Source: Bacteroidota bacterium
GTDB taxonomy: Bacteria > Bacteroidota > Ignavibacteria > Kryptoniales > JAKASW01
Length of the DNA stretch: 64,000 bases
Reading direction: 5' to 3'
Assembly: GCA_021845665.1 (NCBI GenBank)
Contig: JAJZVO010000013.1
Span: 1-64,000 of the forward strand
Translations under genes and position numbers: made by a program
In this document: positions 1,344 to 22,178 of the stretch, one piece after another
Numbering within the stretch: position 1 is the stretch's first letter
How the letters are laid out: each line of letters starts with the position of its first letter
Notes under the pieces: generated by a model
What the model saw: only the letters and a program-made list of their open reading frames with translations
Databases searched by the model: none
What the model was told of the DNA's origin: nothing

Positions 1344-1781
1344 TTGGGACAGCAGCAATTATTGCTAATTGTATTGGGGGTGATAATCGTGGGCATTGCC
1401 ATTGCGGTCGGTCTTGCAGTATTCAGGAGCGAAAGCCAGAGTTCGAACCGCAATGATCTAATAACCGATCTTGAAAGGCTCGCTTCGGTGGCTCAGGAGT
1501 ACTACAGGAAACCGTCCAGCATGAATGGAGGCGGGATGAACTTCATGGGATTTGCCCTTTCTCCGGTTGACTCAGGAAATGCCGACGGGAGTTTTTCTCT
1601 GAGCACTCAACCGCCCAACGATGCGGATTTTAAAAGAGGGAGCACGCTGCCGATCAATATTCCGGCCAGCGAGATCTACATCATTGGTTGCGGAAAGGAA
1701 ACGGGAAACGATAACCGGAGGGCAGTGAAAGCGTATGCAACTGTCCTGCCCGATTCTGTCGCGATAACCATTATGAACTGA
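1344..1781 (+). CDS. small single-pass, type IV pilin-like protein, function unknown
   Basis: A 145-residue protein. It begins with the polar stretch MGQQQ, then one strongly hydrophobic helix (about residues 6-27), then a soluble C-terminal domain that opens with an amphipathic stretch (NDLITDLERLASVAQEYY). That layout, hydrophobic helix, charged helix, Gly-rich turn (MNGGGMNF) and beta-rich tail, is pilin- or pseudopilin-like. The canonical prepilin-peptidase site (G-F-T-L-x-E) is not visible. The start is TTG at 1344, supported by AAGGAG seven bases upstream. It stands alone, with no pilus assembly genes nearby. Similar short proteins occur in FCB genomes as far as I recall, but the role is unknown and the pilin comparison is inference. 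Confidence 0.7.
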   Translation: MGQQQLLLIVLGVIIVGIAIAVGLAVFRSESQSSNRNDLITDLERLASVAQEYYRKPSSMNGGGMNFMGFALSPVDSGNADGSFSLSTQPPNDADFKRGSTLPINIPASEIYIIGCGKETGNDNRRAVKAYATVLPDSVAITIMN

Positions 1782-1811
1782 TGCTACCGGTAAGCGCTTG
1801 TAACCTTCCCC

Positions 1812-1844
1812 TTAAAAAGGCCGTCCCGGGAGACCCCGGGACGG
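1812..1844 (-). terminator. rho-independent terminator of rpsU
   Basis: A perfect 10-bp inverted repeat, CCGTCCCGGG (1821-1830) and CCCGGGACGG (1835-1844), with loop AGAC. On the minus strand the stem is followed by a run of five T (AAAAA at 1814-1818 on the plus strand). It begins eight bases after the rpsU stop and also separates rpsU from the convergent pilin-like gene. Confidence 0.9.
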
Positions 1845-1851
1845 ATACGAA

Positions 1852-2046
1852 TCAACTGAGTTCCGATGCAAGTTTCTGAGAGCGACGTATTGCTTTCACT
1901 CGCTTCATCCGCTTGCGAACCGAGGGCTTCGTGAAGTAAGTTCTCTTCTTGAATTCTTTGAGAATTCCCGAGCGCTCATACTTCTTCTTGAAACGCCTCA
2001 GTGCTCTGTCGATCGGCTCATTCTCTTGAACAACGACGCCGACCAA
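1852..2046 (-). CDS. rpsU: 30S ribosomal protein S21
   Basis: S21 is a small basic protein of the 30S subunit that binds near the anti-Shine-Dalgarno end of 16S rRNA and helps initiation. From TTG at 2046 the product is 64 residues, the usual size. It carries the family pattern VxENEPIDRALRRFKKKYERSG followed by a Lys/Arg-rich tail. A longer frame runs to 2199, but its extra 51 residues have no counterpart in S21, while AAGGAAGGTG sits just upstream of the TTG, so the short form is preferred. A strong terminator follows. It is divergent from folP, 404 bp away. Confidence 0.93.
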   Translation of the reverse strand: MVGVVVQENEPIDRALRRFKKKYERSGILKEFKKRTYFTKPSVRKRMKRVKAIRRSQKLASELS

Positions 2047-2450
2047 TCGAATCACCTTCCTTTGTTTTTTTGTTAGGAACTTCTGTAAGAAGATAACCAT
2101 CCGATCCTGAAGATACAACAATTTCACCCTGTCCCAAACCCTCGATGATGGCTTGATGCGATTGACACCGGCAATTTGAGGGGGGGAGCTTACTGCCAAT
2201 TTCGGATGAAGTCTCCTTCACGGTACTTTGTCCCACGAGAAGCCCTTTCTAGTCATGACCACTCGGCCGTTTATCTGCCTTTTGCTCACGGCCACCTTAC
2301 TTAAATGAAGTTGAGGACAAACGACCGAATACCGCCTACCTGGCTCTACTTATGATTGTTCACAGAGGGAACGACTACATGGCTTATCACGGGTCACACA
2401 ACGATGAAAGTCTGGGGCTCAATTCTTATATTTAAATCGAAAAGAGTTCA
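2047..2450. other. divergent intergenic region between rpsU and folP
   Basis: 404 bp with no convincing gene. The minus-strand open frame that covers 2018-2236 overlaps rpsU in another frame and resembles nothing. An A/T-rich box, TATATTTAAAT (about 2427-2437), 14 bases before the folP ATG, could be the -10 element of the folP operon; the -35 region is not consensus. The minus-strand promoter of rpsU must also lie here, but I could not place it. Confidence 0.4.
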
Positions 2451-3299
2451 ATGAACGACACAAAACTCACATATCGATTCGGCAGTGCGACGGTTGAGTT
2501 CGGATGCCGCACTTACATTATGGGAATACTGAACGTCACTCCGGATTCGTTCTCGGACGGTGGGATGTTTTTCGACCAGACCGATGCGGTGCTTCATGCC
2601 TTCCAAATGGTGAAGGACGGGGCTGACATAATAGATGTTGGGGGGGAATCCACTCGCCCGGGGGCGGAGAGCGTTACACTAGAGGAAGAGATAAAACGTG
2701 TGGTCCCGGTCGTTCAGAAACTAAGGCAGAAGACTAAGATCCCCTTGTCGGTGGACACATATAAGGCTAAGGTCGCTTCCGAGGCGTTGAATGCCGGTGC
2801 AAATATTGTAAATGATATCTCTGGGCTACGTGCCGAACCGGAAATGGCAGATGTCGTTGCCGGAGCCGGTGCATCGGTCGTCATCATGCACATCAAAGGA
2901 ACTCCGAAGGACATGCAGATTAATCCTTCATATGACGACCTCGTAGGGGAGGTGTATGATTATCTATCGCGTGCGGTTGAGACAGCGCGCTCAAAAGGCA
3001 TCAAACAGATAATGGTGGATCCTGGAATAGGTTTCGGAAAGACTGCCGACCATAATTTGGAACTGATAAACCGCCTTTCCGAATTCAGGAGAATAGGTGT
3101 ACCGATCCTGATAGGCGTGTCGAGAAAATCTTTCATCGGGAAGATACTCGATACGGCGGTGGAGGCACGCCTTGAAGGGACCGCAGCCGCGATCACGGCG
3201 AGCATCCTGCACGGAGCGGATATCGTCCGAGTCCATGACGTAAGAGAAATGCGCAGAGTTGCGTTGGTAGCAGACGCGATACGGAGGCAGAAGGCCTGA
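2451..3299 (+). CDS. folP: dihydropteroate synthase
   Basis: Condenses p-aminobenzoate with 6-hydroxymethyl-dihydropterin diphosphate to give dihydropteroate in folate synthesis. It is 282 residues, the usual size for this TIM-barrel enzyme. Both signature regions are present: GILNVTPDSFSDGG (residues 25-38) and, near residue 60, IDVGGESTRPGAE. SVDTYKA, NDISG, VDPGIGFGKT and the late GVSRKSFIG loop follow in order. It is the first gene of an overlapping operon: its TGA shares one base with the ATG of cdaA. A folP-cdaA pairing is typical of Bacteroidota and relatives. Confidence 0.97.
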   Translation: MNDTKLTYRFGSATVEFGCRTYIMGILNVTPDSFSDGGMFFDQTDAVLHAFQMVKDGADIIDVGGESTRPGAESVTLEEEIKRVVPVVQKLRQKTKIPLSVDTYKAKVASEALNAGANIVNDISGLRAEPEMADVVAGAGASVVIMHIKGTPKDMQINPSYDDLVGEVYDYLSRAVETARSKGIKQIMVDPGIGFGKTADHNLELINRLSEFRRIGVPILIGVSRKSFIGKILDTAVEARLEGTAAAITASILHGADIVRVHDVREMRRVALVADAIRRQKA

Positions 3300-4114
3300 T
3301 GGACCTTTTTCATATCGGGTTTATTCCCGTCTCGGTAATTGACATTATCGATATCGCTATTGTCGCATTCATTTTTTACAAGCTTTACCAGGTCATGCGC
3401 GGCACCGTCGCTGCCCAGATATTTATCGGGCTGCTTATGATTCTCGCGCTTTCGTTCGCGGCGCAGGCGCTCGGTATGCGCGCGCTCGGCTGGCTTCTCG
3501 GAACGCTGACAAATATTTGGGTCATTGCGTTCATAGTGCTATTCCAGCCCGAGCTGAGGAGATTGTTCCTTTACTTTGGGAAGAACAGCTTTGTAAGGTT
3601 CTTCATTCATATCGACATCAGCGAGACGGTGGACGAGATCGCCGACGCCGCTACAGAGTTGAGCAACAGGCAGCATGGCGCTCTTATTGTCATTGTTCGC
3701 GGAAGTGCGCTCCGTACCATCATAGAAACGGGCGAGGAAATACGCGCGAAGGTTTCCAAGGGACTTCTCGTGACAATTTTCAATCCCAAGGCTCCGCTTC
3801 ACGACGGGGCAATCGTTGTGAGAGGAGACACGATAGAAGCCGCAAGATGCACACTTCCATTGAGCTCCACGACAAAACTTGGCGGCTATGTTCTCGGGAT
3901 GCGGCACCGCGCGGGGCTGGGCATGTCGGAACAGAGCGATGCCCTGGTCGTCATCGTCTCGGAAGAGACCGGGACTATTTCCGTTGCAGAGGATGGCATC
4001 CTCACCCGCGGCTTGTCGCCCGAAGGGTTGCGTCGACGGCTAAAGGAGACACTGCCGAGGCCGTCCGACAAGGGAGCTAAGTCGATTCTTAAGCACGCAA
4101 CCGAAGATGCCTAA
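3299..4114 (+). CDS. cdaA: diadenylate cyclase CdaA (membrane-bound DAC domain)
   Basis: Makes the second messenger cyclic di-AMP from two ATP. It has 271 residues. Three hydrophobic segments lie in the first 85 residues (about 13-32, 37-57, 63-82), followed by a cytosolic DAC domain with the catalytic DGA motif at 169-171 and the RHR motif at 202-204 (GMRHRAGLGMSE). Both are required for activity and both are intact. In Firmicutes cdaA sits with cdaR and glmM; here it follows folP directly, with no CdaR regulator. It overlaps folP by one base and the glycosyltransferase by eight, so translation is probably coupled. Confidence 0.95.
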   Translation: MDLFHIGFIPVSVIDIIDIAIVAFIFYKLYQVMRGTVAAQIFIGLLMILALSFAAQALGMRALGWLLGTLTNIWVIAFIVLFQPELRRLFLYFGKNSFVRFFIHIDISETVDEIADAATELSNRQHGALIVIVRGSALRTIIETGEEIRAKVSKGLLVTIFNPKAPLHDGAIVVRGDTIEAARCTLPLSSTTKLGGYVLGMRHRAGLGMSEQSDALVVIVSEETGTISVAEDGILTRGLSPEGLRRRLKETLPRPSDKGAKSILKHATEDA

Positions 4115-9258: not shown

Positions 9259-10923
9259 TTAGAACACAACCGGTTCTTCGTATACTCCGAATACTTCCTT
9301 TAATATCTCACACATCTCGCCGATTGTGACATATGCCCGGGTTGCCTGAAGCAACTCTGGCATAAGATTGCTCCCGTCCCCGGCAGCCCGCCTGAGACCT
9401 TCAATCGCTCTCCTAGCATCCGCGTCGCTCCGACCCGCTTTCACTTCCGCAACACGCCTGCGCTGCTTGGTTTCCACATCCTTCGAGATCTCGAGGATCG
9501 GAATAGAGAGACGTTCATCCTCCTGAACAAACTCGTTTACCCCAACGATAATTTTTTCCTTCCTGTCGAGCTCCTGCTGATACCTGTAAGCGGCCTCGGC
9601 AATCTCTCTCTGGAAGAAACCTTGTTCGATAGCGGGGATCACGCCGCCGAGTGATTCGATTTTTTCAAAATAATCCACCGCCTCGGCCTCAAGCCTGTTG
9701 GTCATGCTCTCAACGAAGTAGCTACCTGCCAAAGGATCGACGGTGTTTGCGACTCCCGTCTCGTACGCCAGTATCTGCTGTGTACGAAGCGCTATCGTTA
9801 CCGCCTTTTCGCTGGGAAGGGCAAGCGTCTCGTCCATCGAATTCGTATGCAACGACTGGGTCCCTCCAAGCACGGCGGCAAGTGCCTGATATGCCGTGCG
9901 CACCATGTTGTTCTCAGGTTGCTGTGCGGTCAGGGAACAACCGGCAGTCTGCGTATGAAACCTGAGCGCGAGCGTCCGTGGATTCTTAGCTCCGTACTTG
10001 TCCCTCATCCTCTTGGCCCAGATTCTCCGAGCCGCACGGTACTTCGCTACCTCTTCGAAGAAATCGACATGTGAATTGAAGAAGAAGGAGATTTGTGGGA
10101 CGAACTCGTCGACGTCTAGGCCCGCTGCGATTCCCGCTTCGACGTAGGCGAAACCGTCCGCAAGCGTGAAGGCGAGCTCCTGCGCCGCCGTCGATCCCGC
10201 TTCTCTAATGTGATAACCGCTCACGGATATCGGGTTCCACTTCGGCATCTCCTTCACGGCGTAACTGAACATGTCGGTGATGATTCGCATCGAGGGCACA
10301 GGTGGATATATCCATTCCTTCTGTGCGATGTATTCCTTCAGGATATCGTTCTGAATTGTGCCGCGAAGCTGACTCGGCTTGACTCCCTGCTTTTCGGCGA
10401 TCACAATGTAGAAGGCGAGGAGCATCGCCGCCGGAGCGTTTATAGTCATCGAAGTCGACACCTTATCAAGTGGGATTCCTTTGAAGAGAATTTCCATATC
10501 TGAAAGCGAACTCACGGAAACTCCACACACGCCGACCTCACCTTCCGAAAGGGGATCGTCCGCGTCTCGTCCCATAAGTGTCGGGAGGTCGAAAGCGACA
10601 CTCAGACCTGTTTGCCCATTCCCGAGTAGGTAGTGGTAACGGCTGTTGGAATCCTCCGGCGTGCCGAAGCCGGCGAACTGCCTCATGGTCCACAACTTCC
10701 CGCGGTACATCGTCGCGTGAATGCCCCGCGTATATGGGAATTCACCGGGGAAACCGATCTCGTTTTCGAAATCCATTTGGGCGGTATGCTCCGGCGTGTA
10801 AAGCATTTCGACCGGTTCACCGCTCACAGTCGTAAACTTCACCGGACGGATCTTACTCTCATTGGCTTTGCTCTCCCATTCCCGCTTCCGTCTTTCGAAT
10901 TCCTCAGCCGACCGTTTCATCAA
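9259..10923 (-). CDS. acyl-CoA mutase large subunit (methylmalonyl-CoA mutase family), without B12-binding domain
   Basis: A 554-residue TIM-barrel catalytic subunit of the coenzyme B12 mutases, which rearrange the carbon skeleton of acyl-CoAs such as methylmalonyl-CoA/succinyl-CoA. Hallmarks: [18 protein letters not shown] (from residue 65), [50 protein letters not shown] and SLHTNSMDE. It ends after the linker ([12 protein letters not shown]), so the C-terminal cobalamin domain of one-chain enzymes is absent and a separate small subunit is needed; none is nearby. His69 stands where P. shermanii mutase has substrate-contacting Tyr89 (GPYATMY). The same GIH form is, as I recall, common in this subfamily, so the substrate is not certain. 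It overlaps the upstream membrane protein by 4 nt. Confidence 0.9.
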
Positions 10924-11630: not shown

Positions 11631-11818
11631 ATTCGAATTTCAAAAAGTCATCTGACTGATTCAATGTCAAACTTGCCACGTTCAAGGAGCGGACGGGCTG
11701 AACAGATCATGCTTCCTTCCCTGATATGCAGTGATCCTTTAGTACATCGAGGTTTACGTACTCCTTCGTTTCTTGCTTTGCGAAATGGGCTTATTTAAAT
11801 TGATCAACGGCAAATTTG

Positions 11819-12991
11819 ATGAGTAAAAGGACAAGTATCGCTATACTCGGCTCCACTGGGTCGATTGGAAGAAACAGTCTGGACGTTATCACCAGCATGA
11901 ACGAGCATGGCGAAGACTATCATGTCGCTTATCTTGTCACGAACAAAAACGTAGATTTGCTTTATCAGCAGGTAAAGAAGTACACTCCTGCCGGGGTCGT
12001 CATAATCGATGAGAAGAGAGCCGATCAATTCAGGTCCTATTTGAACGGCGAAAAACTGAAGGTCTATTCCGGAGAGTCGGGTCTCATGGATGTAATGTCG
12101 GGCGAGGAATTTGACGTCCTAATAAGCTCGCTCGTCGGCTTTGCGGGACTTCGCCCTACGTTGAAGGCGCTGGAGGCAGGGAAGACTGTTGCGCTTGCAA
12201 ATAAGGAGACGATGGTTGTAGCAGGCGAGATCGTCAACCAGACTGCAAGTAAGTATCATGCAAACCTGCTCCCCGTCGACAGCGAGCACAGCGCGATCCT
12301 CCAATGCTTCTCGGGTGAGGGGAAGAAATCGATTGCGAAACTGATTCTTACGGCTTCCGGAGGCCCGTTCCTGAATCGGAGCAAAGAGGAACTCGAAAAC
12401 GTGACTGTGGAAGAAGCCCTCAATCATCCGAATTGGAAAATGGGAAACAAGATCACGATCGATTCCGCGACGTTAATGAACAAAGGGCTGGAAGTCATTG
12501 AAGCTCATTATCTCTTCAGCTTGCCGGCGGATAAGATTGAGATTGTCGTCCATCCTCAGTCTATCATACATTCGATGGTCGAATTTGTAGACGGCTCCAT
12601 AAAAGCGCAGCTCGGCATGCCTGATATGAAGATTCCAATTCAATACGCGCTCACGTACCCGGAACGTGTCGAGTCAAAATATCAAAGAATAGATTTCAAC
12701 AAGATCGGGCAGCTCACGTTCATGCCGCCGGATATGGAGAAATTTACCCTTATCAATTCGGCTTATGAGGCTTTGCGTCAGGGCGGAACCTCTACGGCTA
12801 TTTTGAATGCAGCGAATGAGGCGGCTGTCGATCTCTTTCTCCGCCGCAGGATAAGGTTCATGCAGATATCTGAGTTTGTCGACGCTGCACTCGGAGCCAT
12901 CGAGTCGAAAAACTTTCCCGACTTAGACGAGATATTCGAAGCGGATCGGGATGCCAGAAAGTTTGTGTATGCGGAGGCGGAGCACGTTTGA
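11819..12991 (+). CDS. dxr: 1-deoxy-D-xylulose 5-phosphate reductoisomerase
   Basis: Second step of the MEP isoprenoid pathway: converts DXP to 2-C-methyl-D-erythritol 4-phosphate with NADPH. From ATG 11819 it is 390 residues, the family length; the in-frame TTG one codon earlier is not needed. NADPH-binding GSTGSIG is at 11-17. ALANKETMV, the metal and substrate site PVDSEHSAI, the LTASGGPF loop, NWKMGNKITIDSATLMNKGLE and VVHPQSIIHSMVE all follow in order. An AT-rich box (TTAAAT, 11795-11800) lies 18 bases before the start. rseP follows after 72 bp, and the pair ends at a terminator. Confidence 0.97.
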   Translation: MSKRTSIAILGSTGSIGRNSLDVITSMNEHGEDYHVAYLVTNKNVDLLYQQVKKYTPAGVVIIDEKRADQFRSYLNGEKLKVYSGESGLMDVMSGEEFDVLISSLVGFAGLRPTLKALEAGKTVALANKETMVVAGEIVNQTASKYHANLLPVDSEHSAILQCFSGEGKKSIAKLILTASGGPFLNRSKEELENVTVEEALNHPNWKMGNKITIDSATLMNKGLEVIEAHYLFSLPADKIEIVVHPQSIIHSMVEFVDGSIKAQLGMPDMKIPIQYALTYPERVESKYQRIDFNKIGQLTFMPPDMEKFTLINSAYEALRQGGTSTAILNAANEAAVDLFLRRRIRFMQISEFVDAALGAIESKNFPDLDEIFEADRDARKFVYAEAEHV

Positions 12992-13063
12992 AGTCAGCTT
13001 CTATTCAGGCAGCGTCGGGCTGCCGTGATTAGAGAATTTGAAATCTAAACCAGAGAATTGTGG

Positions 13064-14365
13064 ATGGCTTATATACTTTATTTCATAATCACCGTCGGAG
13101 TTCTTGTCTTGGTGCATGAGTTCGGCCATTTCATTGCCGCCAAATTGTCCGGGATGAAGGTGGACACCTTTTCGATCGGCTTCCCGCCCCGCGCCTTCGG
13201 CAAGAAAATCGGTGATACCGACTATTGCGTGTCATGGATTCCCATCGGAGGGTACGTCAAAATCGCCGGGATGATCGATGAGAGTTTCGATACCGATTTC
13301 GTGAACAAGCCTCCGCAGCCAAACGAGTTCCGCTCGAAGCCGATGTACCAGAGAATGATTGTCGTCTCGGCCGGCGTGATAATGAATTTCCTCCTTACCT
13401 TCCTGATCTTCTACGGTATAAACCTGGTCAACGGCAAGATGTATCAGGCGACCACGACTGTCGGGATGGTACGCCCGGGTACTCCCGCTCAGAAACTTGG
13501 CTTCGAGGGCGGCGACAGGCTCATGTCCATCAATGGTAAGGCTGTTAAGAACTGGGAAAATGTTTTGACAGATCTCTACCTTGACAACGTCGCCAACCCT
13601 TTGTCGGTAAAGCTCTATCGTGGCGGAAAGACTGCGGACATCACTGTTGCTAAAGGGGTGGTGCGGCCTGATAAAGACTTCGGCCTGTACCCGAACCATA
13701 TGCGGGTTCAGATTGATGCTGTTGAACCTGGAATGCCCGCCTCAAAAGTCGGCATCTTGCCGGGCGATTATGTCCTATCTGTGGACGGAGATCGTGTTGT
13801 TACCGACACTCAACTCGTTCAGATCGTAAAGTCAAATAAGGGGAAGTTGATTCAGCTAGGCATCGAGAGAGGGAATGAGGTAAAGAATATTTCGGTGATG
13901 CCTAACTCGGACGGAAAGATCGGAGTGGGAATCATCATGGCCTACACCGGTCCGATCGAAAGGTTTAAGTATAACGTCATCTCTGCTATACCCGCCGGTT
14001 TTGACCAGACTGTCGGTGCGACTGGTCTGCTTCTGAAATCAATTTATCAAATGATCGACGGAAAAGTATCGTTCACGAAGTCAATCGGCGGACCAATCAA
14101 GATCGCGCAGCTCGCCACACAAAGCGCTGAAATGGGACTGGTCAGTTTCCTTGGTTTCATGGCATTGCTCAGCATTAGTCTGGCTGTACTTAACATACTT
14201 CCTTTCCCGGCACTTGACGGAGGACATCTCGCGTTTCTTGTGTACGAGTCGATATTCAGAAGGGAAGTGCCCACGAAGGTGAAACTCGTAGCCCAACAGA
14301 TCGGCTTCGCAGTGCTTCTCCTGTTCATGGCATTTGTCATTTACAACGATATTGTACATTTCTAA
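13064..14365 (+). CDS. rseP: RIP site-2 zinc metalloprotease
   Basis: Intramembrane protease that cuts membrane-spanning regulators such as anti-sigma factors and also clears signal-peptide remnants. From ATG 13064 it is 433 residues. HEFGH (18-22) lies in the first membrane helix, GGYVKIAG follows, there are two PDZ domains in the periplasmic loop (about 125-290), and the second zinc motif NILPFPALDGGH sits near residue 385, followed by the last helix. It is the usual neighbour of dxr. No sigma or anti-sigma pair is present in this window, so its target is unknown. Confidence 0.95.
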   Translation: MAYILYFIITVGVLVLVHEFGHFIAAKLSGMKVDTFSIGFPPRAFGKKIGDTDYCVSWIPIGGYVKIAGMIDESFDTDFVNKPPQPNEFRSKPMYQRMIVVSAGVIMNFLLTFLIFYGINLVNGKMYQATTTVGMVRPGTPAQKLGFEGGDRLMSINGKAVKNWENVLTDLYLDNVANPLSVKLYRGGKTADITVAKGVVRPDKDFGLYPNHMRVQIDAVEPGMPASKVGILPGDYVLSVDGDRVVTDTQLVQIVKSNKGKLIQLGIERGNEVKNISVMPNSDGKIGVGIIMAYTGPIERFKYNVISAIPAGFDQTVGATGLLLKSIYQMIDGKVSFTKSIGGPIKIAQLATQSAEMGLVSFLGFMALLSISLAVLNILPFPALDGGHLAFLVYESIFRREVPTKVKLVAQQIGFAVLLLFMAFVIYNDIVHF

Positions 14366-14408: not shown

Positions 14409-14538
14409 TACATGCCTGATGCCGTGTACCTATGAGAGGGGGCTGGCTCCGGCTTGTTTTGAAGAATGCGTCCGACATAATTGTCAAACTATAAGTTTTT
14501 GACGGATATACCGCATTCCGGCAAAAAGGGAGGAGCTT

Positions 14539-15642
14539 ATGAGACGCTTCAACATTACCGTGTTGTTCACCAGTCTGATTGCTCTTTCAGCCTCAGTGAA
14601 CGCGCAGACTTCTACAAATCTCGTCAGTATCGTCCTTACCGTTCCGCAGACCAATCAGATTTACGTAGCCGATCTGGATATCCAGCACATCCAAAGCTCC
14701 GGGGTTCTCTTTTCCGCGACGCTCCAGTCACTTGCTTCAGCTCGTATCAAGGTTAAGCTGAGGATGACGGTTAATGTAACGCTCGCCGATGGAACATCGT
14801 ATCCCGATATCGCGGATGCAACGACCAACCCCTTCACGCTGGCGCCCGGACAGGTGCGCGTCATAACTAATGTCGACCTTTCCGGCAGCAATCCGTCGAT
14901 TAGCGTCGAGAGCTCGCACTACAATTCCAACCAGCTGGACCAGCTGAAGAATGTCGCGCTAGCCACAGGTAAAGCTCCGGCCGGAGTGTATCAGTTCGTG
15001 CTGCAATGTCTCGACCAGGATAACATGCCGGTTTCCGAACAGTCTCAGGGGAACATCATTGTAACGAATCCAAGCAGGATAGAGCTTGCGCTCCCTATGG
15101 ATCAGGGATCCGTCTCGACGCTCTTCCCGCATTTCCAATGGATGGCGAATGTCGATACTGTAGTCTTGTCCGTCTACGAAAAACTTCCAAGCCAGGTTAG
15201 TCCTGAAGATGTAGTGTCCGGTGTTCCGTACCTGCGAATGACCGTGCCGAACTCGACTTCACCGGTGCCGGGGTCGTTCAATTACCCGCCATACGGTCCG
15301 GGTGTGAGACCTTTGAAAAACGGGAGAACTTATTATTGGTATGTACAAATACCCGGCTCCGCTTCGCGCGGGAGCGGTCTGAGAAGCGACATCTGGAGCT
15401 TCACCATCGGGAGCATGGATTCTGCCGAACTGGAGGGGACACAGGGCGGCAACATCAATAGCATGGCGACTGCCGCGTTGAAAAGTTTCCTTACTGGCAC
15501 ACCTTACAGTTATCTCGTCTCTCAGATCAGCATGCTGACGGGACAGGCCACATACGACGGCAATGAAATTTCGATCGACGAACTCATAGACATCCTCAAG
15601 AACATGGATCGGTCGAAAGTCACAAGTGTGATAGTCCATTAG
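14539..15642 (+). CDS. secreted beta-rich protein of unknown function, first gene of the FecR/CHASE2 locus
   Basis: 367 residues with a cleavable signal peptide (about 1-22, ending SVNAQ). The first half (residues 24-190) is beta-rich and Thr/Ser/Asn-rich. A second domain has an FPHFQWM motif near 200 and PLKNGRTYYWYVQ near 260; the pattern of Q-W strands and YYW recalls a fibronectin- or Ig-like fold. A short helical tail (ISIDELIDILKNMD) ends the protein. I do not recognise a family. The start has a strong GGGAGGAG ribosome site. The FecR-domain gene starts 10 bp downstream, so the two are almost certainly one transcript. Confidence 0.8.
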   Translation: MRRFNITVLFTSLIALSASVNAQTSTNLVSIVLTVPQTNQIYVADLDIQHIQSSGVLFSATLQSLASARIKVKLRMTVNVTLADGTSYPDIADATTNPFTLAPGQVRVITNVDLSGSNPSISVESSHYNSNQLDQLKNVALATGKAPAGVYQFVLQCLDQDNMPVSEQSQGNIIVTNPSRIELALPMDQGSVSTLFPHFQWMANVDTVVLSVYEKLPSQVSPEDVVSGVPYLRMTVPNSTSPVPGSFNYPPYGPGVRPLKNGRTYYWYVQIPGSASRGSGLRSDIWSFTIGSMDSAELEGTQGGNINSMATAALKSFLTGTPYSYLVSQISMLTGQATYDGNEISIDELIDILKNMDRSKVTSVIVH

Positions 15643-15652
15643 GGAGGCGGCC

Positions 15653-16336
15653 ATGGAAAAGAGGAATCTTATTATCGCTTTCGCGCTGCTTGCCTTTGCG
15701 GCAACGCTTTCTTTTAAAGTGGCGGCGCGCAGCAACGTGGCGCTTTTCTGGATAATAAAGAATGAGGTCGAGAAGAGTCCAAACTCAGAAGTATGGAAAG
15801 GCGCGAAGAAAGGGGAGTTGATTTACGGCGGCGACTACGTCAGGACGCTTCCCAAGTCCTTCACGCTGATAAAGTTCAATGATTCCAGTACTTTGCGCCT
15901 TGGACCCGAGTCGGAGGTGCAGGTCAACGGGGTCGACAATCCGTCGAACATGTTCGTCAACAAGGGCGATGTGGGATTTTCGATGGCTAAACGAAAGGAC
16001 AAGCCATTCGAGTTTACGACACCAACCAGCGTCGCCTCAATTCGAGGGACCCAGGGTATCCTGGTTGTCGGGCTCAACAACTCGGATTTCCTTACCATAG
16101 TTGAAGGGCTCGTCTCATTCGTGAACAACATTTCCCACGATTCCGTGAACGTCGGAGCCGGGCAAACCGGAGTCTCCTCCTCGAACGGCGGCTTGATTGT
16201 CCACAAGTCTACCGAGGCCGATCTGGAAAGGCTCGCGCAGTTGAATGACCAGTTTGGCTGGAAACATGAACTTAAGATCCAATTCCGAGGCAGCGATGGA
16301 CAAATGCATGAGATCATAATCGATACTCAGAAATAG
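15653..16336 (+). CDS. periplasmic FecR-domain protein
   Basis: 227 residues with an N-terminal hydrophobic signal or anchor (about 5-25), then a FecR domain: GELIYGGDYVRTLPKSFTLIKF, LRLGPESEVQV, NKGDVGFSM, FEFTTPTSVASIRGTQG (about 118-138) and VEGLVSFVN. FecR domains are beta-helical periplasmic modules known from FecR of the iron-citrate system, and are also common next to CHASE2 sensors. Here there is no sigma factor, TonB receptor or siderophore gene, so an iron role is unlikely. GGAGG precedes the start. It lies between the secreted protein and the outer-membrane barrel gene, with small gaps on both sides. Confidence 0.88.
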   Translation: MEKRNLIIAFALLAFAATLSFKVAARSNVALFWIIKNEVEKSPNSEVWKGAKKGELIYGGDYVRTLPKSFTLIKFNDSSTLRLGPESEVQVNGVDNPSNMFVNKGDVGFSMAKRKDKPFEFTTPTSVASIRGTQGILVVGLNNSDFLTIVEGLVSFVNNISHDSVNVGAGQTGVSSSNGGLIVHKSTEADLERLAQLNDQFGWKHELKIQFRGSDGQMHEIIIDTQK

Positions 16337-16380
16337 TCTTTTTCTGCCCTAACTATAGAGCAGTGTTGGTCGGAGGCATT

Positions 16381-18804
16381 GTGAGCAAATCTAGCAAGTT
16401 GGTTGCGGGGGGCAGGAGTGCACTCACCCTTGTGTCCGTATCCGTCCTTTTTCTCGCGCGGCCCGCTTCTGCACAGCAGGGGCTCGTGATTAATGTGACA
16501 GCCGCAACCGGGGCTGTCGAAAACAGCCCTGTTGTGATAATGGCTGATATGAAAAGTCTGACGAACATCTCACAGGCGCTCCTCTTCTACAGGAACGATC
16601 TTTCTACTGACTTCCAGCAAACCGAAATGAGTTTTCAGGAATCATCGATGTCTCTCTCGGGGACCGTGCCTTCCTCCTACGTGATCAGCCCCTATATTGA
16701 AGTATATGTCAGATTAATGATGAGGGACGGGTCGATCGAAACTTATCCCACAGAAAATCCCACGGAGAACCCTGTACGCATAAGTGTCCGCAGGTCGGAA
16801 TCGGAGAAGGATATCCTCATAATAAGCCCGGACCGTGACCAGCGGTTGACCGTCGACAACCTCATGATTGCCGTCTCCATGCTCTTTGCGCCGAAGTCCG
16901 TAGAGAGGCAAAAAACCCAACTATACTTCGATGGACTGGATGTTACATCGGACGCCGTGGTGAGCGGACAGGTTATCGTCTATTCCCCCACGAAGTTTCC
17001 AGTGCCGGTATCGGGCGGGGTCCACACGGCGAAGGTCGTGTTGTACGATTCAAGCGGTGCACGGGCCGCAAGTCTCGAGTGGCATTTTTACATTATCGCC
17101 CTTGGCGAAAATCAGCGTCCAAGTTTTTCCTACCAGGGATCTGGAAAGATCGAGCTCAGCAATGAGACTATCAGCGGTGTTTCAACGTGGTACAACAGAG
17201 GCGATTTGAACCTCGGCGGAACGGGGTTCGGTATGAATATGGGCGCGATTGTGCACATAACATCCGAGGAAAAGTCCTACCGTCAGCCGCAGGACCGGTT
17301 CGGCCTCTATGCCTCCACATCATGGCTCAGCCTGAAACTCGGCGACGGCTACCCGGCGTTCAGCCCGCTAATTATGAACGGCCTCCGCGTTCGCGGAGTG
17401 TCGGGGAGATTATCGCTCGGCTTCTTCAAGCTGGAAGCGGCGTACGGCCAGACCGTGAGAGGCATCAACGGCCAGTACCTCGATACCCTCGTCGTGGCGC
17501 CAGGCTCGGGACTTCAACTCACAGGAGCCAACTACATTAGGCTTAACGATTCAACTTTCATAAATGTAAACTACGGTACTTATTCGCGAAATCTGTTTGC
17601 AGTTCGGCCCTCGTTCGATTTCGGGAACCACGCGAGCCTCGGCTTCACGTTTCTCAAATCCTCCGACGTTCTCAGCTCTATAAACCTCGGGAGTAATCCC
17701 AACCAGAACTTGGTGGTCGGAAGCGATTTCTCCATGAATTTCGACAATAGGAGGATAAACTTCCTGGCCGAGGGAGCGATGAGCATGCTGAATCAGAACA
17801 CAGCCGTCGGAAACAGATCCGCAGCGTTTATAGATTCTGTAGCACAGTCAGATATCGGCACGCAGATCAACAATATCGTCCCCTTGACAACGCTATCCAG
17901 CCTCATCACAATCAACGAGTACCTCGTACCCCTCGACCCGACCAAGCTTTCGTCGCTCGCGTGGGATGTTAGCCTCAGCCTCAATTACCTCAACACTTTT
18001 GCGAAAGTTGGATACATCTACCGGGGACCAGACTACACGTCTTTCGGTCAGCCGTTCATAAATACGGACGTCCGCGGGGTGAACGTCTTCCTGCGCCCGC
18101 GATTGTTCAGTAACCAGGTGCTCCTTTCCATTTCCTACGAGAACCTGTTCGATAACTTGCAGCATCAAAAAGTCACCACGACGAATTTCGTCAACTCTAA
18201 CGTCTCCCTCTCTTATTTCCCAATTGCATCCCTCCCGGGACTGACGTTGGGGTACTCCTCTTATTACAATACGAATTCGATCTCTCCAGATTCCGCGTAC
18301 GCAGTCGACAACCTGACTTACAGATACTATGTAGAGTCGGACTATTCATTCCAATGTCTCGGGCAGCAAAATCTTGCCGTGAGCGTCGGGATCAGTAAGC
18401 GACGGGACAAGGTCCTCCTCGGCACGAACATAAATAACTCCAACGTGTCTTTAATGCTCAACTCAAATTTCGGTGTCGCCCCTCTGAAAACGTCGGTAGG
18501 CTTCAACTTGAACGGCAACAGGAGTGCCATGAAGGACACTACAGCTCTAGCACTTTACGAACAAATCCAGACTTTCAACTACACATTCATCACGATCGGG
18601 GCCACTTATGGATTGTTCCACGAAAGGCTGAGCGTCGGAGCCAACTACACGCCCACCTTCGGCGCGTTCACAAGGAACGGCTACGGTTTCATCGCAATCC
18701 TCCTGGTCGCAAAAGCCCAATCCATCGATCTCAACATCAACTATTTTGCCTCTACCAGTTCGAATGACCTCATAGGTTCCCTCGTCTATGCCGTGGATTT
18801 TTGA
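16381..18804 (+). CDS. large outer-membrane beta-barrel protein of unknown family
   Basis: From GTG 16381, with GGAGG five bases upstream, it is 807 residues and starts with a typical signal peptide (ending PASAQQ near residue 33). A more upstream in-frame GTG (16363) lacks a ribosome site. Residues about 35-250 look like two Ig-type domains, including a Ser/Glu-rich ISVRRSESEKD linker. From about 255 to the end the protein alternates polar and hydrophobic residues in many Tyr/Asn-rich strands and closes with LVYAVDF, a C-terminal Phe beta-signal for BAM insertion. There is no TonB box or plug. It sits between FecR and the CHASE2 cyclase and could be the surface-exposed part of that system. 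Confidence 0.82.
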   Translation: MSKSSKLVAGGRSALTLVSVSVLFLARPASAQQGLVINVTAATGAVENSPVVIMADMKSLTNISQALLFYRNDLSTDFQQTEMSFQESSMSLSGTVPSSYVISPYIEVYVRLMMRDGSIETYPTENPTENPVRISVRRSESEKDILIISPDRDQRLTVDNLMIAVSMLFAPKSVERQKTQLYFDGLDVTSDAVVSGQVIVYSPTKFPVPVSGGVHTAKVVLYDSSGARAASLEWHFYIIALGENQRPSFSYQGSGKIELSNETISGVSTWYNRGDLNLGGTGFGMNMGAIVHITSEEKSYRQPQDRFGLYASTSWLSLKLGDGYPAFSPLIMNGLRVRGVSGRLSLGFFKLEAAYGQTVRGINGQYLDTLVVAPGSGLQLTGANYIRLNDSTFINVNYGTYSRNLFAVRPSFDFGNHASLGFTFLKSSDVLSSINLGSNPNQNLVVGSDFSMNFDNRRINFLAEGAMSMLNQNTAVGNRSAAFIDSVAQSDIGTQINNIVPLTTLSSLITINEYLVPLDPTKLSSLAWDVSLSLNYLNTFAKVGYIYRGPDYTSFGQPFINTDVRGVNVFLRPRLFSNQVLLSISYENLFDNLQHQKVTTTNFVNSNVSLSYFPIASLPGLTLGYSSYYNTNSISPDSAYAVDNLTYRYYVESDYSFQCLGQQNLAVSVGISKRRDKVLLGTNINNSNVSLMLNSNFGVAPLKTSVGFNLNGNRSAMKDTTALALYEQIQTFNYTFITIGATYGLFHERLSVGANYTPTFGAFTRNGYGFIAILLVAKAQSIDLNINYFASTSSNDLIGSLVYAVDF

Positions 18805-18829
18805 TGGGCCCAGTTGTTAGATTTAAACG

Positions 18830-21031
18830 ATGAAGACGATCGGCAGCACAATTACGAGGACCCGAAAGTTCCTTTTGCCGCTTCTTATCGCCTTACTTTC
18901 CTCGGGTATCGCTTTCCTTCTTTCGCGTGATATTCCCTTCGACGTTCCATTTTTGAAGACGGCTCAACTGAGGACGTTGGACCAGAGATTCGAAGCGAGA
19001 GGGCCGGTGGACATCATGGACAGTTCCAAAGTGGTGATAGTGGCCCTGGACGATCAGTCGTTCCGCGCGCTGCCCGACGAGATAGTCTTCCCGCGGAGCT
19101 ATTACGCAATGGCGATAGCGAACTTGTACGCCGCAGGGGCAAAGGTGGTTTGCGTGGACGTTGTCTTTGATGGCCGCTCGCCTCTTAAAGGAGATGACAG
19201 CACATTGGCAGCGGTCCTGAAAAAGTACCCGTCGACGGTGCTCGCTGTCCGAAATACTATTTCAATTTCTGGCAGGGTAACGGTTCTTAAGAGCCGCGAT
19301 TACTTCCATAATTTATTTCTCAAGTATGACAGTTCAATGGGGTCCGTATTACTTCCGAACGACCCTGATGGCGTTTACCGGAGATATATGCCATACGTCG
19401 ATTTCCGCACCGGGGCGGGCAGCTATACTCAGGTGCCTTCTTTCGGCTTCGAAGCTGTATCGAAATATTTGGGACTCGGGAATCGCGTGGCCTCGAACCG
19501 CCCGGCGTTTTTCAAGTTGGGAGGGATAAGAATTCCTAAGTACAACCGTTCATCAATGCTCATTAACTTTCCGGGGCCGGCAGGGAGTTTCCCTACGTAC
19601 GATTTCTGGCAGGTGCTCGATGATTCTTCTTTCCAGACCCGGGACGAGAAAGACTTCGGACTCCAGATAAACGCTTATTATCCGCTGAAACAGAGCGGAG
19701 TGTTCAAGAACAAAATCGTCCTCATAGGTGCCGAGTATCCGGAGTCGGGAGATCTACGCCCGATACCTTTCTTGAAGAACAAATTAAACGACCAGAGCAA
19801 CATGGCTTACGGAGTTGAGATTCATGCCGCGGCTATTCAGACTCTTTTGGACGGACACTTCTATCATACTTCTGCTGTCTGGGTGGATTTCCTCGAGATG
19901 TTTCTTGGAGCATCCTTGATTGCTCTGACATCCTTTCTCTTCAAGTCCGCCAAACACTCGAGGATGTTCCTCGTCATTTTCATCCCCCTCATTGTAACAG
20001 CAGGAGTCGTAGCAGCGTCCTATGAGGCCGCCTTCGCACTTTTCATCAGGAACAGGCTGATCCTGAAGATCATATATCCCATTCTCGCGTATTCGTTCAG
20101 CTATGTCGCAGTAGTGGTTTATCAGTTTGTGTCCGAGCGAAAAGCTAAAGCTGCGATCAAGTCCCTCTTCAGCAGGTATGTCGATCCCTCCGTCGTGAAT
20201 CAGCTTGTCGGTAACCCCGACCTCGTTCGACTCGGAGGAGAACGCAAGGAGCTTACCGTACTCTTTTCAGATATTGCTAGTTTCACATCTGTAAGTGAGA
20301 AGCTCTCCCCCGAGGATCTAGTTACCCACCTGAACGATTACCTGACTTCCATGACGGAAGTTGTCTTCAAGAATTCGGGAACTCTCGATAAATACATCGG
20401 GGATGCGATAATCGCTTTCTGGGGAGCACCGCTGGATGTTAAAGATCATGCCTGCCGTGCTTGTCAGACGGCGATCGAGATGACGAGGAGGCTGGACAAG
20501 CTCCACGAGAAATGGACAAGCGAAGGGAAGCCTCTCCTGAACTTCAGGATTGGTATAAATTCCGGTGAGATGGTCGTCGGAAATGTCGGCGGCCGGGATC
20601 GTTTCGATTATACCGTCATCGGCGACAATGTTAACCTTGCCTCGCGGCTTGAATCCGCAAATAAGATGTACCGCACCAGGCTGCTCATGAGCGAATACAC
20701 CTACGAGCTCGTAAAGGATACGGTCTATGTTCGTGAACTGGATCTGATTATCGTGAAAGGGAAGACCAGGCCGGTAAAAATATACGAGCTCATATCGGAC
20801 CGAACTGACAATGTATCCGAAGAAAAGAAAAACCTCGTCGACATCTATTGCGCCGGGTTGGCGGCATATCGCAAACGCCGATGGAAGGCGGCGAAAGACC
20901 TGTTCGAAAGAGTCCTTTCAAAAGATCCCGCAGACTATCCTTCCGAAATGTATCTGGAAAGGTGCATGCTCTACGAAATGGAACCGCCGCCTGACGAATG
21001 GAACGGCGTGTTCATAATGCAGACAAAGTAA
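18830..21031 (+). CDS. CHASE2-domain class IIIb adenylate cyclase
   Basis: 733 residues. One N-terminal membrane helix (14-32); an extracytoplasmic CHASE2 sensor (about 35-345: VVIVALDDQSF, YAAGAKVVCVDVVF, VLIGAEY); about three further helices (351-432); a class III cyclase domain (about 470-655); and a short TPR-like tail (670-710). Metal ligands Asp481 and Asp525 are present. The purine-selecting pair reads Lys521 and Thr595, the adenylate cyclase class IIIb combination, and the transition-state residues Asn602 and Arg606 are intact. It should therefore make cAMP; bicarbonate sensitivity, known for some IIIb enzymes, is possible. No Shine-Dalgarno site precedes the ATG. It follows the barrel gene by 25 bp. 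Confidence 0.92.
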   Translation: MKTIGSTITRTRKFLLPLLIALLSSGIAFLLSRDIPFDVPFLKTAQLRTLDQRFEARGPVDIMDSSKVVIVALDDQSFRALPDEIVFPRSYYAMAIANLYAAGAKVVCVDVVFDGRSPLKGDDSTLAAVLKKYPSTVLAVRNTISISGRVTVLKSRDYFHNLFLKYDSSMGSVLLPNDPDGVYRRYMPYVDFRTGAGSYTQVPSFGFEAVSKYLGLGNRVASNRPAFFKLGGIRIPKYNRSSMLINFPGPAGSFPTYDFWQVLDDSSFQTRDEKDFGLQINAYYPLKQSGVFKNKIVLIGAEYPESGDLRPIPFLKNKLNDQSNMAYGVEIHAAAIQTLLDGHFYHTSAVWVDFLEMFLGASLIALTSFLFKSAKHSRMFLVIFIPLIVTAGVVAASYEAAFALFIRNRLILKIIYPILAYSFSYVAVVVYQFVSERKAKAAIKSLFSRYVDPSVVNQLVGNPDLVRLGGERKELTVLFSDIASFTSVSEKLSPEDLVTHLNDYLTSMTEVVFKNSGTLDKYIGDAIIAFWGAPLDVKDHACRACQTAIEMTRRLDKLHEKWTSEGKPLLNFRIGINSGEMVVGNVGGRDRFDYTVIGDNVNLASRLESANKMYRTRLLMSEYTYELVKDTVYVRELDLIIVKGKTRPVKIYELISDRTDNVSEEKKNLVDIYCAGLAAYRKRRWKAAKDLFERVLSKDPADYPSEMYLERCMLYEMEPPPDEWNGVFIMQTK

Positions 21032-21086: not shown

Positions 21087-22178
21087 ATGAGTAAGTCAAA
21101 AGAAAGAAGTCCGAAGGACGCGAGAACGGACCGCGGTGTGTCACCGGAACAGGTCGGCGACGACGTCAACTTCGACAGGGCGCTTCGCCCGAGGTTCCTG
21201 AACGAGTTTGTCGGACAGAAGAAGATCGTCGACAAACTCGAAGTTTTTATCAAGGCCGCGCGGAAGCGCCGCGAAGCTCTCGACCATGTTCTTCTGATGG
21301 GGCCGCCCGGGCTCGGCAAGACCACGCTGGCGAACATAATAGCCAACGAGCTTGAGTGTGAAATCATCTCCACAACCGGACCGTCGCTCGAAAAGGCGGG
21401 CGATCTGGCGGGTATACTTACATCGATCAGCGGGAAGGTCGTCGTGTTCATCGACGAGGTACACAGGATGCCGGCCGCTGTCGAGGAGATGCTCTACGGC
21501 GCGATGGAAGACTACAAGCTTTCCATAGTCGTGGACCGCGGACCGGGCGCCAGAAATGTTCAGCTGAACGTAAGCCCGTTCACGCTTGTCGCAGCAACTA
21601 CGAGGGCCGGACTCCTCAGCAATCCTTTCAGGTCGCGATTCGGAATCATCGAGCGGCTGGAGTATTATGACGACGAATATCTCGAGAAAATTGTCAAAAG
21701 ATCCGCCTCGATACTTAAAGTCAGTATCGAGGGCGACGCCGCCTTCGAGATAGCCAGGAGAAGCAGGGGAACGCCTAGGGTTGCCAACAGGCTTCTTCGG
21801 CGCACGAGGGATTATTCCGACGTGAAGGGAAAAAACTCGATAGACATCGAAATTGCCAGGCACGCTCTCGACCAGCTCGAAGTAGACAAGACCGGTCTCG
21901 ACGAGATGGACAGGAAAATTCTTGCCACAATTGTCGATTACTACAAAGGAGGTCCTGTCGGCGTCAATTCCATAGCCGCCGTTGTCAGCGAAGACGCCGG
22001 TACAATCGAAGAGGTTTACGAACCGTTTCTTCTCCAAAAGGGCTACTTAAGAAGGACTATGAGGGGGCGTGAAGCTACGGAGAAGGCCTACGAATTCCTC
22101 GGGAAAGAAAAGAGAAACGTCGCTTCCCGGCAGGAAGAACTCCCGATTAGCGACCCGGCAAAAAAGCCGGATGCCTGA
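21087..22178 (+). CDS. ruvB: Holliday junction branch migration ATPase RuvB
   Basis: Hexameric AAA+ motor that, with RuvA, drives branch migration of Holliday junctions in recombinational repair. It has 363 residues, slightly longer than usual because of a Pro/Lys-rich C-terminal tail. Walker A GPPGLGKT is at 72-79, Walker B FIDEVHR near 118, sensor loop VAATTRAGLLSNPFRSRFG near 170, and the C-terminal winged helix (GPVGVNSIAAVVSED ... EPFLLQKGYLRRTMRGR). It is not next to ruvA or ruvC here. The 3-methyladenine glycosylase gene follows after 30 bp. Confidence 0.97.
   Translation: MSKSKERSPKDARTDRGVSPEQVGDDVNFDRALRPRFLNEFVGQKKIVDKLEVFIKAARKRREALDHVLLMGPPGLGKTTLANIIANELECEIISTTGPSLEKAGDLAGILTSISGKVVVFIDEVHRMPAAVEEMLYGAMEDYKLSIVVDRGPGARNVQLNVSPFTLVAATTRAGLLSNPFRSRFGIIERLEYYDDEYLEKIVKRSASILKVSIEGDAAFEIARRSRGTPRVANRLLRRTRDYSDVKGKNSIDIEIARHALDQLEVDKTGLDEMDRKILATIVDYYKGGPVGVNSIAAVVSEDAGTIEEVYEPFLLQKGYLRRTMRGREATEKAYEFLGKEKRNVASRQEELPISDPAKKPDA

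Follow-up and report, generated by a model that had tools for sequence, protein, structure and literature searches.

A conserved g1-FecR-barrel-CHASE2 gene block of the Ignavibacteria as a probable trans-envelope route to cyclic AMP

Described FecR-CHASE2 systems and the four-gene block

Genetic evidence for the transfer of an outside signal across two membranes to cyclic AMP (cAMP) comes from essentially one system, the NsrA-CyaK pair of Sinorhizobium meliloti. NsrA has been described as an outer-membrane receptor, and the cAMP response to signal 1 depends on both NsrA and CyaK (PMC7529298, PMC13001267); no mechanism was found described for the pair in the literature surveyed. Related neighbourhoods occur in the Campylobacterota, where a CHASE2 adenylate cyclase is clustered with a FecR-domain outer-membrane protein (PMC9239204), and in the BiofilmReg operon of Burkholderia, which encodes a LysM-FecR protein and a CHASE2 histidine kinase (PMC5192318). 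Here, these systems are compared with a block of four genes in a 64,000-nucleotide stretch of DNA (the window; assembly GCA_021845665.1, contig JAJZVO010000013.1, positions 1 to 64,000) from a genome that belongs to the Ignavibacteria. The genes encode, in order, a secreted or periplasmic protein (g1), a FecR-domain protein, a large outer-membrane beta-barrel protein and a CHASE2 class III nucleotidyl cyclase, and had been linked to each other in an earlier reading of the DNA letters (the original prediction). We consider it probable that the block acts as a single, conserved sensory unit spanning the envelope, by which a signal at the cell surface is passed across both membranes to cAMP. A literature search found no paper on this four-gene block in the Ignavibacteria.

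The nsrA and cyaK genes overlap by one base on S. meliloti pSymB, and NsrA (1200 amino acids) carries a FecR domain at residues 66-160 followed by tetratricopeptide repeats (TPRs) and then a barrel. Both systems combine a CHASE2 class III cyclase with an adjoining outer-membrane barrel and a periplasmic FecR domain. The window cyclase and CyaK share 30% identity over 82%, and the FecR domains are homologous (match 7e-12). They differ in that NsrA unites FecR, TPRs and barrel in one polypeptide whereas the window has separate FecR and barrel genes, neither with TPRs, and in that g1 is present only in the window block. The four-gene block would work like NsrA-CyaK but is not a member of that system by barrel sequence or gene architecture. 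The relay drawn in the original prediction, in which barrel and g1 sense at the surface, FecR relays and CHASE2 sets cAMP, has support only by analogy, with the genetics of NsrA-CyaK as its precedent. The block shows the logic of that pair in modular form, as a conserved four-protein system found across an entire class and in several further families.

That FecR domains neighbour CHASE2 proteins elsewhere, as the original prediction had stated, is borne out by the other two systems (PMC9239204, PMC5192318). The Campylobacterota cluster differs from the block by a cAMP phosphodiesterase and a TPR protein, and g1 is undescribed there (PMC9239204). No phosphodiesterase domain was found in the four window proteins, TPRs appear in them only as a weak match at the cyclase C-terminus, and the named flanking genes are housekeeping genes. 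Burkholderia BiofilmReg likewise joins a secreted FecR-domain protein to a CHASE2 receptor but has a histidine kinase/response regulator output and no barrel. The FecIRA system has a periplasmic FecR domain and an outer-membrane barrel in common with the block, which lacks its extracytoplasmic function (ECF) sigma factor, its anti-sigma FecR N-domain and its TonB-dependent transducer. No ECF sigma factor is present among the named flanking genes (methylmalonyl-CoA mutase, dxr, rseP, ruvB, 3-methyladenine glycosylase and ftsH; two flanking open reading frames (ORFs) are unnamed), no cytoplasmic anti-sigma domain was detected by Pfam on the FecR protein, whose N-terminus is a signal or anchor, and no TonB plug or receptor domain was matched in the barrel protein at E<1. 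Fec-type iron signalling was rejected on these grounds, in agreement with the original prediction.

Conservation, movement and loss of the block

A scan of named genomes with a barrel profile identified 56 loci, and profiles of the four proteins were then used to read their gene order. Nearly all loci carry the labels Ignavibacteria, Melioribacteraceae, Kryptonia or unplaced Bacteroidetes metagenome-assembled genomes, and the isolate Stygiobacter electus is among them. The g1-FecR-barrel-CHASE2 order is complete in 43 out of 56 loci, 12 others are broken off at contig ends, and in one incomplete locus (L138, genome G038) the cyclase sits elsewhere; the genes, whose co-occurrence across genomes the original prediction had left to be checked, are not scattered. 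Median spacings across loci are 10.5, 32 and 9 bp, and the gene that follows the cyclase usually reads in the opposite direction (34 of 46 loci). The barrel (E<1e-20) and FecR are found in the identical 31 out of 61 relatives, and the same four-gene order recurs outside the Ignavibacteria in three families (f32, f21 and f47). With the loci found independently of one another, the four genes are grouped far beyond chance.

Grouping of the immediate neighbours of the block gave at least 16 groups upstream and at least 20 downstream (52 loci; some groups are possibly antisense ORFs produced by a simple gene caller), which indicates that the block stayed together while its surroundings changed. One neighbour, rseP, lies upstream in 15 of the 52 loci (about a third) and is absent from this position in most families. 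Its adjacency, together with the hydrophobic N-terminal segment of the FecR protein, would fit a variant of Fec signalling in which a fragment of the FecR protein, released by RseP cleavage, would act in the cytoplasm. We regard this as highly improbable: sigma factor, anti-sigma domain and TonB-dependent receptor or plug are all lacking, as described above, and rseP stands outside the mobile block.

Two genomes of the same genus as the window genome (G002, 100% complete, and G007, 90% complete) display an empty site, in which dxr-rseP is followed after about 150 bp by ruvB. Their flanks are 72-87% identical to the window, all four block genes are missing, and no class III cyclase is present anywhere in either genome. 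Because the block follows dxr-rseP in several other families, the gap represents the loss of the block as a unit. The persistence of dxr, rseP and ruvB where the block was lost shows that they are not parts of it, and they were rejected as members of the unit for this reason and because many other block contexts exist.

The catalytic residues of the cyclase are as named in the original prediction: D481, K521, D525, T595, N602 and R606 do not vary in any of the 86 aligned CHASE2 cyclases, among them the paralogue in the window genome, and are kept in all eleven cyclases tested from other families and genomes. They constitute the features of class IIIb, namely two metal-binding Asp residues (D481, D525), the Lys/Thr base pair (K521, T595) and the Asn/Arg transition-state pair (N602, R606), and the closest solved relative of the domain is Pseudomonas aeruginosa CyaB (2.7e-44). 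The module cyclase is the sole PF00211 protein in at least seven genomes (G023, G029, G038, G042, G047, G054 and G056) and is therefore predicted to be their only class III source of cyclic nucleotides.

The kept order, the loss of the block with an empty site, the invariant cyclase residues and the sole-cyclase genomes make it well supported that the four genes are one functional unit, inherited, moved and lost as a block, which is the linkage that the original prediction had proposed. The opposite view, that the four genes are mere chromosomal neighbours and genes 1-3 are functionally unrelated to the cyclase, could draw on the unlinked cyclase in G038 and G056 and the solitary one in G060. 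In G038 and G056 the cyclase is kept despite being unlinked, and the tree groups it with the module cyclases of the same family. Order maintained over many families and contexts, block loss and the identical presence of barrel and FecR refute a mere neighbourhood as far as genomics can, and we assign it next to no probability. The role of FecR beside CHASE2 receptors and the input of CHASE2 become testable because FecR is a separable part here, natural deletions of the block exist and some genomes have the module cyclase as their sole class III cyclase.

Proteins that bind cyclic nucleoside monophosphates (cNMPs) are present in the module-bearing genomes that were checked. Among single-cyclase genomes of family f12 (L160:231-782, L162, L164 and L166) both cNMP-binding proteins found are short, about 150-185 amino acids, and apparently lack a DNA-binding domain; one kind has a motif resembling the cAMP phosphate-binding cassette. 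Judging by these sequences, cAMP may act in the f12 genomes without a CRP-type transcription factor. A stand-alone cNMP-binding protein was considered as a module-specific effector and rejected, its relatives being widespread with or without the module. The window genome also carries a second CHASE2 cyclase (G000, contig C17, L087:589-4638), located between an LPP20-like lipoprotein and a protein with SH3 and M48 peptidase domains, with no FecR among the adjacent genes.

The barrel, g1 and a possible two-partner assembly

The barrel and g1 had been assigned to no recognized family in the original prediction. Neither has a Pfam match at E<1, but both belong to families that are spread over the phylum and that constitute two undescribed outer-membrane families linked to a signalling output. 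An AlphaFold2 model of the barrel protein has an immunoglobulin (Ig)-like N-terminal region and about 26 strands by DSSP count (predicted local distance difference test, pLDDT, 77; predicted template modelling score, pTM, 0.62). Foldseek returned for it generic large barrels only (MtrB-type, ushers and TonB receptors) with template modelling scores (TM-scores) of at most 0.36 over the query, and no specific fold was accepted. The g1 model (pLDDT 84) consists of two Ig/FN3-like domains and a short C-terminal part; it matched tandem Ig-like structures only, and a profile search for solved relatives gave weak Ig matches and nothing further. Structure prediction, which had been suggested for both proteins, thus yielded the Ig-like domains and the barrel but no specific fold match for either.

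The g1 proteins of the module (340-400 amino acids) have homologues in the two N-terminal domains of giant secreted proteins, about 1,000-3,500 amino acids long, whose genes adjoin barrel-family genes (L177-L179, L219, L244-L253 and others); the weakest of these N-terminal matches, scoring under about 30 bits, are uncertain. In the pair loci L177:4919-12681, L178:280-12351, L179:3007-10884, L219:4324-10998 and L244-L253, the barrel measures about 570-660 amino acids and the secreted partner roughly 1,650-3,460. These pairs resemble the block in having a homologous barrel domain next to a protein with a g1-like N-terminus, and differ from it in the giant passenger on the g1 module and in the absence of FecR and CHASE2. 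No Pfam family accounts for the barrel or the giant partner in these pairs and no published name for them was found, making them, by sequence, a candidate undescribed two-partner outer-membrane system. Since the giant-protein N-termini that match g1 adjoin barrel homologues, g1 resembles the docking part of a barrel partner that lacks its passenger, and barrel and g1 appear to be a pair connected to the FecR-CHASE2 output. We tentatively suggest that the two could belong to a new two-partner outer-membrane system of the phylum, in most cases made up of a barrel and a giant surface protein. In this lineage the passenger would have been stripped off, with g1 left for sensing or gating, and the pair wired via FecR and CHASE2 to cAMP. 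If so, one surface pair may plug into differing outputs in different families: in L219 (825-6051, by Pfam) the barrel-giant pair adjoins genes for an ECF sigma factor and a Ser/Thr kinase with TPRs, and L248 has counterparts of this sigma factor and kinase beside its pair (by similarity to L219).

The giant partners also bear on a different explanation, in which barrel and g1 would serve secretion or surface display and the cyclase, instead of sensing an outside cue, would monitor or control the activity of this system. Giants with g1-like N-termini beside barrel homologues are what a transporter-substrate or anchor-passenger pair would look like. The g1 of the module is essentially the N-terminal module without a passenger, however, and the generic, low-scoring Foldseek matches of the barrel also count against such a system; we think it quite unlikely.

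The main alternative is a sensor of envelope integrity, in which barrel and g1 would be ordinary components of the outer membrane that, when correctly assembled, keep FecR off CHASE2; misassembly would free FecR and alter cAMP, with no external ligand involved. It differs from a surface-signal sensor only in what is sensed. Barrel loops 295-306, 549-563 and 592-600 are among the most conserved parts of the protein while other long loops vary freely, and such conservation of some longer loops is more in keeping with a fixed partner or structure than with a variable receptor. The position of the block behind rseP, which encodes a protease of the envelope-stress response, in 15 of 52 loci and the existence of barrel homologues without any signalling partner point the same way. 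Against this, dxr-rseP is a common housekeeping gene pair, most families lack the rseP neighbourhood, and rseP remains when the block goes. On balance we consider the integrity sensor unlikely.

For the surface-signal unit that we favour, the architecture suggests that the barrel would lie in the outer membrane and extend its Ig-like region into the periplasm, and that barrel and g1 would form a two-partner surface assembly. Ligand binding or a change of envelope state at this assembly would be passed to the periplasmic FecR domain, which would contact CHASE2 and thereby activate or silence the cyclase in the cytoplasm, with a change in cAMP; we infer this direction of signalling. By analogy the scheme would resemble NsrA-CyaK with the FecR and barrel of NsrA split over two genes and g1 added. 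Several observations weigh against it. The NsrA barrel was tried as a homologue of the window barrel and gave no match (hhalign probability about 0), so that the likeness is one of architecture, and confidence in the barrel model is moderate. Barrel-giant pairs without FecR or CHASE2 occur in many genomes, and families f24 and f39 (L210, L211 and L214-L216) carry the barrel without g1, FecR or cyclase, preceded by short HIT-like and short TPR-like genes (named by eye from sequence); the barrel therefore has other roles. Finally, in G060 (68% complete; L091:5463-9216) dxr-rseP is followed directly by the module cyclase and the other three genes are absent, which may reflect partial loss or an assembly fault.

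Layout of the locus in the window

Table 1. Positions of the block genes, their parts and flanking genes in the window.
Feature	Positions	Strand	Description
g1	14539..15642	+	367 aa (amino acids); secreted/periplasmic, two Ig/FN3-like domains, no Pfam family
g1 ribosome-binding site AGGGAGGAG	14527-14535	+	
FecR-domain protein	15653..16336	+	227 aa; N-terminal signal/anchor, no anti-sigma domain
FecR domain	about 15836-16066	+	Within the FecR-domain protein
Large outer-membrane beta-barrel protein	16381..18804	+	807 aa; signal peptide, ~200 residues of Ig-like domains, ~26 predicted strands
Ig-like region of barrel protein	16486..17100	+	aa 36-240; predicted periplasmic
Barrel part	17125..18798	+	aa 249-806, predicted; odd strands lead to long loops, most even strands to short turns
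CHASE2-transmembrane-class III (IIIb-type) nucleotidyl cyclase	18830..21031	+	733 aa; weak C-terminal TPR
CHASE2 extracytoplasmic domain	18935..19915	+	aa 36-362 of the cyclase
Cyclase catalytic domain	20246..20785	+	aa 473-652; D481, K521, D525, T595, N602, R606
rseP	13058..14365	+	Flank outside the block; remains where the block is lost
dxr	11816-12991		Flank outside the block, upstream with rseP
ruvB	21087..22178	+	Flank outside the block; directly after rseP in two block-less genomes
Methylmalonyl-CoA mutase	9259-10923	-	N-terminal-type large subunit (TIGR00641), upstream of the locus

The gene arrangement given in the original prediction was confirmed (table 1): the four genes lie on the same strand with spacings of 10, 44 and 25 bp, and purine-rich ribosome sites precede g1 (AGGGAGGAG), FecR (GGGAGG, 15642-15647) and the barrel (GGAGG, 16372-16376), whereas the cyclase start, unlike the other three, has none. 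Export signals or membrane helices, which had been claimed for all four proteins, were seen as an N-terminal hydrophobic segment followed by an AxA-type site on the FecR (VAA|RS) and barrel (ASA|QQ) proteins, a signal-like N-terminus on g1 (VNA|Q), and one N-terminal and several central hydrophobic segments in the cyclase. Pfam assigns FecR to gene 2 (5e-11) and CHASE2 (2e-44) and Guanylate_cyc (2.7e-27) to gene 4. A promoter and terminator scan gave counts at or near chance and was not counted as evidence. The block is preceded by dxr and rseP and followed by ruvB, a 3-methyladenine glycosylase gene and ftsH; no link between the methylmalonyl-CoA mutase gene and the block was seen. The barrel gene starts with GTG at 16381, and the mechanical ORF already opens at 16363.

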